From: Buxus sempervirens
Lineage: Eukaryota; Streptophyta; Magnoliopsida; Buxales; Buxaceae
Length of the DNA: 64,000 nucleotides
NCBI GenBank assembly: GCA_947561395.2
Contig: OX387186.1
Coordinates: forward strand, 7,677,888 to 7,741,887
Direction of reading: 5' to 3'
Both the position numbers and the translations under genes were made by a program. The notes beneath the pieces were generated by a model. It saw nothing but the letters and a program-made list of their open reading frames with translations. It did no database searches and had not been told where the DNA came from. Positions 41,335-47,300 of this stretch are shown in pieces. Each line of letters begins with the position of its first letter. Position 1 is the first letter of the stretch.

Positions 41335-42946
41335 TTAACCATGTAAACCACAATCTTTCTTTTGGGTAGGGAATATGTCTGGGCATCATATCATATCAAT
41401 CACAATCCGTTGATCATTGGGAGAACGAATTATCAAATCAATTTATTTTTATTTATTAAAAATAAATGTTGGTGTCGTGTGAATGTAGAATAACCCTAGC
41501 ATTCACGCTCATATAGGGACGGGAAGTTGATCTCTGTTCGTAACAGAGCGGAGTATAGAAAGAGGAAGAGACGAAAGAGGAAAGGAAGGAAGCGAATACC
41601 GGTGATCATGCTATCCGGAATACTGTGATCGGCAGGTACAGGACTGCCGGTGCAGATGATCTGAAGCCTGAAGTAATATGGAGATCTTCTAAAACCCTGA
41701 AGCCAAAGCATCTTGCTGGTCGTGTCTGGACGAGAAATGCCTCTTCCACCGGAGCATCCGCTCTTGTGGTTTGCATGACTGCAATGGGATCCACGGCTTC
41801 GCTTGATTTCGATACCTCCGTGTTCAAGAAAGAGAAGATCACGCTTGCGGATCGTGACGAAGTTGAGTCGCCTGCTCTTTGGTTCTTAAAATTAATTTTT
41901 TCATTTCATTTGTCTTTGCTGGTTCATTTTTGTTATTCATTTGTTTATTATTCTTATTATTAATTTTTTTGCAGTATATTGTCAGGGACATCAAGCAGAT
42001 TGGCGTAATTGGGTGGGGCTCCCAGGTAAATTCCTTTGATTCTGTTAAAGTAAGGCCTTGTTTGTATTCTTTTTGGAAAAGCTGCTACCCATAGTTACTT
42101 CTAAAGTTTTTCTAAACTGAAAGTCGGTCTGGTAAACCATGAACAGAAAATAGTTCCTTTTACTGAAAAAGAAAAGTACCTTAGGTGGCACACAAATTGC
42201 CTTTTGCGACAATTCTAATTGCAAAAGGCAACTAGAATTGCCCATGAGTCCATTTCTTGTGCTATGAAAATAGATGGAGAAGGAAACGGAGTCCTCTCAC
42301 TTTTTCCTTCACTCTTTTTTTTTTCCCCTCAATGGGGCTTTTTTCTTGCCATTTTCTGAACTTTTTACCGTGACAGCTTAAGAGAGATTCTCCCTTTTAT
42401 AAGGGAGACTCCTCCTCCTCTTTATTCGATAAGCCTTCGCTTATTCTTGATTTATTTTTCGAACTTAATTGACTTCTAATCAATAGACCCTCTTTCTCCT
42501 TTACGAAGAGCATGAAAATAGAATTACATAAAAGCATCTAAAAGGGGAATATTTGGTCCTTTTTTGTAAAGGCTTACAGCTCTTGTAGTTGTACAAAATA
42601 TGTTATTTCTTAATTGATCGATGGTATTTTCAAGCATATCTATTCATTTTTTGTACATGTTTTAATGCTTTTCTTCAATTTCCTTTTCGGTGTTTCTTAT
42701 GGTTGTGAATTTGCACCACATTTTTCAGGTAGATAACTATGAGCCTGTATTCTACCACATGAGCAAATGAACGGGATCCTTTTCGTAGTCCAATCTGTAT
42801 CATGAATTGACAATGCAAAATTTTGATTTATTATAAATCAAGTAACTGATCAATCACATCATAACCATTTGTAATGTTGAAATTTTAGTAAATCTGTTAA
42901 ATGAAATAATCTATGATTTCGAAGAAAATAAGATGAGAACTTTCAC

Positions 42947-43388
42947 CTAGGCCATCATAAGTGCGACATAAACACCAGCAGTAAAAGGGTACAAAGGACC
43001 CAAATCACCTTTTCGTCTTGTAGATCGGACACGCTCACCAAATTTCCACATTGGTGTCCGATCTATATTCTCCATCGGGAAAACCGTTTCCTGTACACCA
43101 TACTTTTGCCAACGTTCAATTGTTAATTACATACATATGGTTATTATTTAGTATTGGTATACTTCAGATAATATTGTAAACTAAACTGGAAAACTATTGC
43201 ATCATATGAAAATATATGCGTACACGAAAGTTACGGCTATCAAAGACAATTTGCAGATCTCATTCCTACAAGCGACTTCTTCATAGCACTCAGAAAGGAT
43301 GTCCACAAGAGGATAATATGAATCACTATGCCACTTGGAAATGTTTCTTCCCATTCTTTGATAAGGCATTATATAGACTTAACATGTC
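42947..43388 (-). pseudogene. KARI C-terminal exons in the left arm (antisense)
   Basis: Mirror image of the right-arm fragment. Read on the minus strand it shows the KARI exon with YNALS...SYYPLVDILSECYE and, after an intron, MWKFGERVR...[19 protein letters not shown]. It lies opposite to the surrounding KARI exons. A 71-codon open frame at 43216-43431 on the plus strand is its antisense shadow. Confidence 0.85.
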
Positions 43389-43872
43389 CTGTCATGGCAC
43401 AAGACTATTACAATCCAAAATGTGTATATGATCAATCCAACTTGGTGCTTATAATTGGTGATCAATCCAACTTTGTATTTATATAAACCTAAAATGCCCT
43501 TGGTTCGCGGTTTACATTTTCCACGACACTAGTGCAGGAGTACCGGAGTGGTGTTTTTTGGGAGCTAGGTAGCTAAATAAAACCGCCAAATAAAATGCCT
43601 GTATATAAGAAGTAATTAGATGGGCGATAATCAAATATGTGTCAAATCCATGAAGTGCGAATACAATACTAATGATGAGACTAGCTAGCTACCTAGCTCA
43701 CAAAAAACACCACTCCGGTACTCCTGCACTAGTGTAGTGGAAAATGTAAACCGCGAACCAAGGGCATTTTAGGTCTATATAAATACAAAGTTGGATTGAT
43801 CACCAATTATAAGCACCAAGTTGGATTGATCATATACACATTTTGGATTGTAATAGTTTTGTGCCATGACAG

Positions 43873-44314
43873 GGCATGTTAAGTCTATATAATGCCTTAT
43901 CAAAGAATGGGAAGAAACATTTCCAAGTGGCATAGTGATTCATATTATCCTCTTGTGGACATCCTTTCTGAGTGCTATGAAGAAATCGCTTGCGGGAATG
44001 AGATTCGCAAATTGTCTTTGATAGCCGTAACTTTCGTGTACGCATATATTTTCATATGATGCAATAGTTTTCCAGTTTAGTTTACAATATTATCTGAAGT
44101 ATACTAATACTAAATAATAACCATATGTATGTAATTAACAATTGAACGCTGGCAAAAGTATGGTGTACAGGAAACGGTTTTCCCGATGGAGAATATAGAT
44201 CGGACACCAATGTGGAAATTTGGTGAGCGTGTCCGATCTACAAGACGAAAAGGTGATTTGGGTCCTTTGTACCCTTTTACTGCTGGTGTTTATGTCGCAC
44301 TTATGATGGCCTAG
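43873..44314 (+). pseudogene. KARI C-terminal exons in the right arm (sense)
   Basis: The first exon has acceptor CATGACAG and encodes GMLSLYNALSKNGKKHFQ, then a stop codon, then SYYPLVDILSECYEE. The second ends [11 protein letters not shown] followed by TAG in place of the usual Gln codon. These exons stand upstream of the KARI exon for GLRKGSRSF (44467), that is, in the wrong order, so they derive from another KARI copy. Confidence 0.85.
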
Positions 44315-47300
44315 GTGAAAGTTCTCATCTTATTTTCTTCGAAATCATAGATTATTTCATTTAACAGATTTACTAAAATTTCAACATTACAAATGGTTAT
44401 GATGTGATTGATCAGTTACTTGATTTATAATAAATCAGAATTTTGCATTGTCAATTCATGATACAGATTGGACTACGAAAAGGATCCCGTTCATTTGCTG
44501 ATGCTCAATCTGCTGGATTTACTGAAGAGAATGGAACTCTGGGTGATATATGGGAAGCTGTTTCAGGCAGTGATCTTTTGTTGCTATTGCTTTCTGATGT
44601 TGCACAGGTGGGTAAATTTTACAGTTTCACATGCTAGCAGCCTAAATCATTGCTCTTGTTTCCTAACACATGGTATACACACACTGTATCCACTCCTTTG
44701 TGCTTCTTTGCAAGATATGGCAACCAAGGCTCAGAATATTTGTTCCCATGTAGAGCTGGAATTCTAGTGTAACTTTTGGGTTGTGCTACTCTCTAGAGCA
44801 CAGACTAACCATCATTGATGGAAAAGAGAAAAAGTTTATTAATTCAGTTGATGCCCATATCTCTTTCCTTTGTATCCTTTAATCATTTAGGGTGAAAGAG
44901 AGAGAGAGAGTGATTGGTTGCTAACTTGATTTTGTAGCTACTTCAAGCTCTGTGTAGTTGTATATGTGTCCATCTGGCTTTTATGCGCTGCTTCAATGGC
45001 ATCTTCTGTGTTTCCCTTTCTCATGGTTCTGGATTTTCACCATGTGTTTTAGGCGGATAACTATGAGAAACTATTCTCTAACATGAAGCCAAACAGCATA
45101 CTTGGGCTCTCCCATGGGTTTCTTCTTGGATATTTACAGTGCTTGGGGCTTGATTTTCTTGGTAATATAAGCGTGATCGCTGTTTGTCCCAAGGGAATGG
45201 GTCCATCTGTGAGGAGACTCTATGTTCAAGGCAAAGAGATAAATGGTGCAGGAATCAATTCCAGTTTTGCTGTACATCAAGTCTCTGTTGTACATCACAT
45301 GCTTCTATTTTTAGATTAATTTAACAGCAAACTTTTGCCGTTCTGTTTTCATTCTATAAGATAATTCTGTATATGCTCAAAGTTAACTATTCTCTGTTTT
45401 ATTCAGGATATCGATGGTAGAGCTACTGAAGTTGGTTTGGGTTGGTCAGCTGCCTTGGGCCATTTACATTTGCCACAACATTAGAACAAGAGTATAAGAG
45501 TGATATTTTTGGGGAGTGAGGTAGGTTCATAATAACCTATTGGCACTTATAGTCGAAGCTGATGTCTGATTATCACTTATCTTAAATGCAGGCATTTTAC
45601 TTGGTGGTGTTTATGGAATTGTTGAATCACTGTTTAGATGGTACACTGGTCATGGGATGAGTGAAGAACTTGCTTACCAGAACACTGTTTAGTGCATTAC
45701 TGGGATTATATCAAAGAAAATATCATCAAAGGTTTTGTTCTTTTAAGATTCTGTGTTGATAATGAGGTTTAAAGTAATGGTATTTGTTGGGTTTGATGCT
45801 GATTGCCAGAATCCAGATATATGTCAGTGTTTGATTGAATCAATTTAAGACATTGGTTGGAATCATGGATCTTTTCATGTATTGAATTGCCTCTAACAAT
45901 TATGTCTTGGAATTATTTAGTCTGATACTGATACAACCTGCTGATCCAGATCAATATTGGGCAATACTTTAATCCATGTGATGATTTCTTTCTAATAAAT
46001 ACGCATTTGAGAGCGTACTTGTCTTGTGTCATGACAGGGCATGTTGGGGGTATATAATGCCTTATCAGAGAATAGAAGGAAAGAATTCGAGATGGCATAT
46101 AGTGCCTCATATTATCCTTGTAAGGACATCCTTATAGAGTGCTATGAAGATTTTGCCAGTGGTTGTGAGATCAAGAGTGTTGTCTTGGCTGGCTGCCGTT
46201 TTTATGTATATTTTTTCTGTTATTTGCTTCATTTTTTGGTTTTTGATCACATTTTGTAACCTTTAAATCTTGTCTTCAGAATATATTTTGTCTGGAATAA
46301 CTGTAGTGGACAAATGATGTTTGCACCTTTGCTTAACAGGAAAAGGATGGCCTACCAGCTTTCCCTATGGCCAAGATAGGTTGAACACGAATGTGGAAGG
46401 TTGGTGATCGTGTCCAATCAACAAGACCAGAAGGTGATTTGGGCCTTTATATCCTTTTACTGCTGGTGTTTATGTTGCATTTATGATGGCTCAGGTGAGA
46501 GCTCTCATCTTATTGTGGTGGATTTAGAGTGCTTTTGGAAGATTTTTTGGTAATCATAATTAGGAAGTTTTCACCTTATCAAACTGATGTTATGTTTAAA
46601 TCTAAATCAGGATTGAGATCTTGCGGAGTAAGGGCCACTCATACTACAAAAAAAAGGTGCTTTTTGTGGCAACGTTTTTACGACATTTACTCGGGTAGCC
46701 ACTGAAACATCAAATTGTGACACCTTTTTTCACCTGCCGCAATTTATTAGTCGCCTTTTCTTATTTGCACGACGGCACCTTCTGTTCAGGCTTTTGCGTC
46801 CCTCTTTTGTGTTTTCGCGACGACGCCTTTTGTTTGGGCTTTTGCTCTTTCGCGCGCAACACATTTCTCCCTTCCCCGCGTGCGCATCTTCATTCTTCCC
46901 TTTTCCCTCTCACTATCTTGATCAAGCCCTAGTCCCACTTTTTATCTATTGTGAAAGATAGAAGACACCCGATCAGCACTCAGTGAAGCAAACCCTCTGT
47001 GATTGTCGATCTTCACATTATTGGAGGGTTTTACAAGTTTCTGATTTCGTGATTCTTTTCCTTTCCCCTTTCTATGGTTCACTTAGAGATTTAATATGCG
47101 AAATTTTCTGGTTTAAATGTGCATCTCTGTTTTTCTGATCGTTTTGGATTTATTTTTTTTCATCATCTATTTCTGCTTAAGTTCTTCTGGCATATTGAAT
47201 ATTGATCGATGGAACAATGTTAACCCTCTGAAAAGAACGGCAACTGCTAATTGCTTTTTCTATAACAGAACCCCAACCTGCCGTTCTCGACTACTCTCTA

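Follow-up and report, generated by a model that had tools for sequence, protein, structure and literature searches.

An inverted duplication of KARI gene fragments among decayed KARI copies of Buxus sempervirens

The inverted repeat of KARI fragments found in the genome of Buxus sempervirens raises the question whether it is a natural hairpin-RNA locus silencing functional KARI in trans, as an earlier note on this DNA proposed, or a local rearrangement of dead gene pieces. We have analyzed it together with its surroundings in a stretch of 64,000 nt (contig OX387186.1; below, the window). On balance, it is probably a local inverted duplication, of fairly young age, of dead KARI fragments between copies I and II of a decayed tandem array; if transcribed, it would act mainly in cis.

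Structure of the Inverted Repeat

The left arm occupies positions 42758–43575 and the right arm, 43686–44503, each of 818 nt, in inverted orientation, with a 110-nt spacer (43576–43685) that would form the hairpin loop. Direct comparison of the arms identifies 14 differing sites out of 818 (98.3% identity), 11 of them transitions, and no gaps, in agreement with blastn. Facing arms of equal length and high similarity had been described in the earlier note, but with 817 bp for the arms, 112 bp for the spacer and about 97% for the identity, values that our measurements replace. The outermost four columns, including one mismatch, are part of the junction with copy I; true homology of the left arm begins near 42762, and 13 of 814 sites differ when these columns are set aside. 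The arm divergence K is 0.016, and 571 of the 795 24-nt windows match perfectly from arm to arm. The mismatches are clustered, with five of the 14 inside 22 bp (P = 0.0026, for a window picked post hoc), which is not predicted by simple independent drift.

Judged by similarity, each arm is a mosaic of dead KARI pieces, comprising exons 7 and 8, a reversed exon 5 end and the start of exon 3b. In the right arm, tblastn places exon 7 (43870 to ~44035), exon 8 (~44172 to 44314) and the exon 3b start (44467–44503) on the plus strand, the exon 5 end (43765–43691) on the minus strand, and a direct repeat pair of 25 nt at 30-nt spacing lies at 43778–43832. The left arm carries the exon 3b start, exon 8 and exon 7 on the minus strand, and the exon 5 end (43496–43570) on the plus strand. 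With spinach KARI as a query, exons 7–8 are matched with E-values of 4e-24 (left) and 1e-26 (right), and the exon 5 end, oriented oppositely to them, with 7e-5 and 9e-5; the first ~37 nt of exon 3b yield E of 0.30 when alone, in the left arm, while in the right arm the match extends into the full exon beyond the arm (E of 4e-19). Hence two C-terminal KARI exons, previously named as the arm content, are indeed present, but that account was incomplete, as it lacked the exon 3b start and the reversed exon 5 end. A blastn match between 43511–43584 and 45463–45537 reaches 9 nt into the spacer, and this left edge of the spacer may, by its sequence, be a continuation of the intron 5 adjoining the exon 5 piece. 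The locus has the DNA structure of gene-fragment hairpin loci, with long similar inverted arms, a short spacer and origin from a host gene, KARI.

KARI Copies Around the Repeat

Upstream of the repeat, copy I retains on the plus strand remnants of exon 1 (41799–41861; tblastn with spinach KARI, E of 4e-4) and exon 2 (41984–42025; E of 0.012), the latter, by our reading, beginning at 41975 with an internal deletion, and keeping the acceptor AG before and the donor GT after it. No Pfam family was found in the ORF holding the exon 1 remnant (41559–41960). Further along the plus strand (42497–42761, blastn) there are an intron end with an AG acceptor at 42727–42728 and the first 33 nt of exon 4 (VDNYEPVFYHM; tblastn E of 0.89 alone), where the exon is cut off by the left arm. 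In this part of copy I, 245 nt are 97.1% identical to copy III (63756–64000), compared to 70% over 108 columns for copy II in the same exon 4 region (blastn).

Copy II is a pseudogene with stops, spanning exon 3b to exon 8 (44467–46506, plus strand), supported by tblastn, a PDB search of exon 4, and a Pfam KARI_N match above the cut-off. Its exon 3b crosses the outer boundary of the right arm with the frame kept, whereas the left arm breaks exon 4 of copy I. One or more C-terminal KARI exons at 54441–54795 (plus strand; E of 2e-28 and 5e-15, the matches overlapping at residues 470–480) perhaps belong to copy II, though about 8 kb off; the 74-aa first piece has no Pfam match. Copy III (60747–64000, plus strand; tblastn, blastn), also a pseudogene, comprises exons 2, 3a, 3b and the start of exon 4, and extends past the window end. 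No complete KARI gene is present among the tblastn matches in the window; the KARI pieces surrounding the repeat are partial, and most contain stops or deletions. The placement of the repeat inside a KARI pseudogene, suggested previously, agrees with this picture of a natural inverted duplication of KARI fragments among decayed KARI copies.

Age and Formation

Both arms share an exon 7 frameshift (tblastn), a TAG at the exon 8 end, where copy II has CAG, and, when aligned to copy II, a gap spanning the intron 7 acceptor. The common frameshift and stop indicate that decay preceded the duplication. An argument that the arms have stayed alike while nearby exons decayed therefore compares unlike things, as the arm exons themselves are decayed, with the same lesions in both. 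The conclusion then drawn, of a young event or gene conversion, holds: as read from the sequence, the small divergence of the arms (14 of 818 sites) means a recent origin or a recent conversion. Dating of the repeat relative to the split of copies I and III gives 13 of 814 versus 7 of 245 differences (Fisher P of 0.28). With copy II as a polarizing outgroup, albeit a distant one, 11 of the 14 differing positions could be aligned, yielding four changes in the right arm, three in the left arm (including position 44500, a junction base) and four undecided.

The duplication could have arisen via microhomology-type template switching or repair. The arms may also have exchanged sequence after their origin, as the left one appears to be the native site of the exon 5 piece and the right one, that of the exon 3b piece.

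Hairpin Potential and Possible Action in cis

An RNA transcribed across the repeat is predicted to form a near-perfect hairpin: the full-length fold has a predicted energy of –1458.7 kcal/mol with 1666 of 1746 bases paired, and the fold of the middle 962 nt has a z of –73 (0 of 20 shuffles). This z value, together with arm length and identity, rules out a chance origin of the repeat. Some splice signals survive in copy I, which is oriented toward the repeat, and a read-through RNA from this copy would fold into a near-perfect duplex of ~800 bp, which Dicer-like enzymes could cut. The likeliest outcome would be methylation in cis, affecting the repeat and perhaps also the pseudogene array.

Inverted repeats of genes can attract silencing (PMC9263138; PMC3203196). 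Two points in excerpts of the former article speak against the proposed action in cis: mismatches between arms prevent such methylation, with the tested designs denser in mismatches than the 1.7% observed here, and two RdDM mutants left methylation by an inverted repeat unchanged, so that the siRNA step may not be its cause.

The propensity of gene inverted repeats to be silenced is also what speaks against an inert palindrome with no transcription, siRNA or role, an explanation that we regard as rather unlikely but the best of the alternatives. It is consistent with the degraded state of the neighboring KARI pieces and with the CpG content of the arms. CpG depletion, looked for in the arms as a trace of long dense CG methylation, is absent: the observed-to-expected ratios are 0.74 and 0.77, against a median of 0.361 in 606 other windows of the same size, of which 16.8% reach 0.737 (these windows overlap, and a few enter the right arm). 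Undepleted CpG speaks against long dense CG methylation, but a young repeat need not show depletion. Even if silent, the locus would illustrate a decaying tandem gene array as a source of inverted repeats, the proposed raw material of new small-RNA genes.

Possible Silencing of KARI in trans

Silencing of functional KARI in trans by a natural hairpin RNA, the role proposed in the earlier note, appears somewhat less probable still. In its favor, the predicted hairpin is near-perfect, the build of the locus is close to that of soybean GmIRCHS (PMC13051633), and the PAI and VIM inverted repeats affect unlinked homologs (PMC3203196; PMC13213937). The divergence of the arms from copy II, a pseudogene serving as a stand-in for functional KARI, weakens such an effect: blastn stretches show 80% identity over 120 columns in exon 7 and 84% over 138 in exon 8, and 754 of the 798 right-arm 21-mers have at least three mismatches to copy II, leaving 44 with at most two, three of these exact. 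Also, a rice study detected no parental-gene small RNA in one hairpin-pseudogene case, according to the available part of the article (PMC2708354).

Control of KARI dosage by the repeat is thus weakly supported by the sequence, and an effect on functional KARI through the few stretches conserved in exons 7 and 8 is a possible, not a likely, role. More doubtful is a fuller scenario, in which read-through from copy I would yield a ~1.75-kb hairpin and siRNAs at these conserved stretches would lower KARI, so that the locus would be a natural RNAi allele of this enzyme, or a proto-miRNA locus at a very early stage; copy III might carry the same arrangement past the window end. If true, the hairpin siRNAs would lower branched-chain amino-acid synthesis via KARI; if transcribed at all, the repeat would add to the natural hairpin loci already described. 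We know of no earlier natural hairpin locus for KARI. A literature search joining KARI, siRNA, plant and silencing retrieved nothing on such a locus, as judged by titles and the beginnings of abstracts.

Comparison With Known Inverted Repeats

The comparisons below draw on excerpts of the cited articles. GmIRCHS, an inverted repeat of pseudoCHS and a candidate for the I allele, resembles the KARI repeat in having closely spaced inverted arms (1,087 bp with a 78-bp gap, compared to 818 bp and 110 bp here), and in being a dead gene fragment behind a gene 5' part, clustered with a paralog (PMC13051633). However, GmIRCHS is tail-to-tail, while KARI exons 7 and 8 are head-to-head, and it lies behind a promoter part of a DnaJ gene, while the 5' piece here is KARI itself. 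Moreover, GmIRCHS dsRNA has been observed, and loss of silencing accompanies deletions that involve this locus, while the KARI repeat is known as sequence.

PAI1–PAI4 of Arabidopsis Ws is likewise an inverted repeat from an amino-acid biosynthesis gene family, with demonstrated methylation of like sequences (PMC3203196), but its arms are genes, while the KARI arms are fragments, 80–84% identical to the neighboring paralog in exon stretches. In VIM4–VIM2 of Arabidopsis Cvi-0, a gene-family rearrangement has similarly produced a head-to-head inverted repeat with read-through potential; its arms, too, are genes, and reports on it include siRNA, methylation and a lowered VIM1 expression (PMC13213937). 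The action of PAI1–PAI4 and of VIM4–VIM2 is not confined to cis but extends to trans (PMC3203196; PMC13213937), a point against an action of the KARI repeat mainly in cis.

Adjacent inverted paralogous pseudogenes also form the hairpin-siRNA pairs of rice, but these two pairs have stems of 154–185 nt and small-RNA support, as opposed to an 818-nt stem deduced from DNA (PMC2708354). Finally, MIRNA birth has been proposed to begin with an inverted duplication of sequence from a target gene or a pseudogene, and in A. thaliana one miRNA gene overlaps a neighboring pair of inverted paralogous pseudogenes (PMC3237417). The KARI foldback differs in being long and near-perfect, with no miRNA sign; at gathering scores, Rfam, covering known families, has no matches in the 64,000 bases.

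Artefact, Transposon and Neighborhood

An assembly error or uncorrected-read artefact, that is, a false palindrome or a misjoin in the KARI array, is unlikely, and more so than the alternatives above. A tandem array with near-identical stretches could invite it, and odd G runs of 33 and 37 nt elsewhere in the window hint at imperfect assembly, but the 14 differences between the arms are all substitutions, mostly transitions, with no indel, and the flanks are different KARI copies with no mirrored continuation. Although long inverted arms holding captured exons might recall a transposon with long terminal inverted repeats, either a foldback (MITE-like) or a gene-capturing Mutator-like element, this least probable explanation is rejected, as the flanks are unmatched, with no target-site duplication at the ends in a by-eye comparison (TATTCTACCA / CTCAATCTGC), the right outer end lies inside exon 3b, which continues in frame, and no further copy of the arms is found by blastn in the window.

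The IDM1-like gene of the window had been placed a few kilobases from the repeat, but in the domain search its last detected domain ends near 27.88 kb, some 14.9 kb away, and at a distance of about 15 kb the neighborhood argument with IDM1 fails.

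Structure and classification of the repeat

Two mirror-image arms of 818 nt each, at 42758–43575 and 43686–44503, are separated by a spacer of 110 nt. A position-by-position comparison reveals differences at 14 of the 818 sites, 11 of them transitions, and no indels (blastn also places no gaps). The geometry described in the earlier note is upheld. The central 962 nt are predicted to fold at –759 kcal/mol, with none of 20 shuffles as low. In the predicted fold of the entire 1746 nt, 1666 bases are paired and the energy is –1458.7 kcal/mol; the shuffle control covers the central part.

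The closest known system in build is soybean GmIRCHS, with 1,087-bp pseudoCHS3 arms located 78 bp apart behind the promoter part of a DnaJ gene; its dsRNA has been detected (PMC13051633). VIM4–VIM2 of Arabidopsis Cvi-0 (PMC13213937), rice inverted pseudogene pairs (PMC2708354) and the inverted-duplication model of miRNA genes (PMC3237417) are of the same kind. The KARI repeat has the structural features of known plant inverted-repeat loci; we therefore consider it a structural member of an already known kind of locus, and assign low weight to the proposed function in hairpin silencing.

KARI remnants in and around the arms

Mapping was based on the window DNA and the solved plant KARI chains 3fr7 (rice) and 1qmg (spinach), with spinach KARI as the tblastn query; matches above 22 bits are reported, residue numbers refer to the chain fragment, and exon numbers are our own reading. 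Left of the arms, a truncated remnant (copy I) comprises residues 2–22 at 41799–41861 (E 4e-4), residues 40–53 at 41984–42025 (E 0.012), together with the beginning of exon 4 at 42729–42761 (E 0.89). These short matches are individually weak, and their assignment also draws on the order of the pieces and on a DNA match with the copy at the window end (copy III), 42497–42741 (245 nt) being 97.1% identical to 63756–64000 (blastn). Both arms contain residues 284/286–304 and 305–396, as well as residues 214–238 in reversed orientation, and residues 73–86 are also matched (E 0.30 in the left arm). The previously suggested KARI identity of the arms is upheld. To the right, decayed copy II covers residues 76–122 at 44467–44607 and, piecewise, residues 123–396 up to 46506; the C-terminal residues 403–511 are found at 54441–54795. 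Copy III retains residues 22–51 at 60747–60836 and residues 54–76 and 79–116 within 62803–63094; its exon 4 begins at the window end.

Given these placements and the 245-nt match, the repeat is located within an array of tandem KARI copies, all of them dead or partial. Copy III (60747–64000) extends beyond the window end, and the same inverted repeat may also be present in it, just past the window.

Decay, age and formation

Both arms share a frameshift between residues 304 and 305 (tblastn), a terminal TAG in exon 8, where copy II has CAG, and a gap of 8 nt across the intron 7 acceptor (in the alignment with copy II, a distant reference). As the lesions are common to both arms, the KARI piece was already dead when duplicated, and hence the similarity of the arms is uninformative on selection. 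Excluding four outer columns assigned to the junction, the arms differ at 13 of 814 sites (K2P 0.0162). With assumed rates of 7e-9 and 2e-9 substitutions per site per year, the arms diverged about 1.2 to 4 million years ago, or the time since the last conversion is shorter. Five of the 14 mismatches fall in 22 bp (P 0.0026, 20,000 random draws, with the 22-bp interval picked after the cluster had been seen), as could result from a complex mutation or a small conversion.

Exon 3b continues in frame past the outer end of the right arm, so that this arm occupies its original position here. The left outer end interrupts exon 4 of copy I, which makes the left arm the inserted one. For the exon 5 piece of the left arm, the match to copy II extends 9 nt beyond the inner end into the spacer (blastn); going by this short stretch, it is the left arm that appears native here. 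Such a mixed pattern suggests formation in two steps, in which an inverted copy would have arisen first, followed by repair or conversion between the arms. The inner ends bear near-palindromic sequence (AGCTAGGTAGCT / AGCTACCTAGCT), the outer junction has just a few bases in common (by eye), and no target-site duplication was seen at the repeat ends when the flanks were compared by eye.

Potential for silencing

Copy II served as a stand-in for the functional KARI gene, which may be closer or further. Out of 798 right-arm 21-mers, three match copy II exactly, 12 with one mismatch and 29 with two, the remaining 754 having three or more. The close matches, starting at 43856–43890 and 44240–44314, reflect real homology, since a shuffled target never went below 6 mismatches (200 21-mers, every fourth of the 798; one mononucleotide shuffle). 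Given these counts, an effect on KARI in trans would depend on few short stretches.

An effect in cis seems more likely, as two studies report that in hairpin transgenes the repeat and the adjacent promoter are invariably methylated (PMC9263138) and that the PAI1–PAI4 inverted repeat bears methylation (PMC3203196). Contrary to this reading, the same studies report that mismatches blocked methylation, albeit in designs with mismatches denser than the 1.7% of the KARI arms, that the methylation effect was independent of two RdDM components (PMC9263138), and that PAI1–PAI4 also marks unlinked homologues (PMC3203196). The arms show no CpG depletion: their o/e ratios are 0.737 and 0.773, and 16.8% of 606 other windows have at least 0.737. 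This counts against long dense methylation.

Neighboring genes and other features

The gene named IDM1 in the earlier note, and placed there a few kb from the repeat, is represented by domains at about 27.56–27.88 kb, approximately 15 kb away. The TDBD domain scored above its cut-off and the PHD finger slightly below (22.9 bits, cut-off 24), a combination that fits the gene name. Later exons were not detected up to 33 kb in the three plus-strand frames; the actual end of the gene may be somewhat nearer to the repeat.

An auxin response factor gene is represented by fragments at approximately 50085–51633, with the ARF ancillary domain above and B3 below the cut-off (three of six frames). They separate KARI exon 8, at 46.5 kb, from the C-terminal KARI exon, at 54.4 kb, so that either one gene or its remnant is nested within the other, or the KARI copy is split. 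CpG-island-like regions are seen at 6501–8118 and 34801–35818 (o/e 1.4 to 1.9 vs. the window median of 0.36). Runs of 33 G at 14348–14380 and 37 G at 55439–55475, of a length unusual in plant genomes, are possibly a sequencing or gap-filling artefact. Region 1–6858 has duplicated blocks spaced by about 3.5 to 4.2 kb, with a 51-bp coding repeat; the encoded protein presumably resembles a MORF-type organellar RNA-editing factor. A small inverted repeat with 87-nt arms (57684–57770 and 57886–57972, 83%) is perhaps a MITE.
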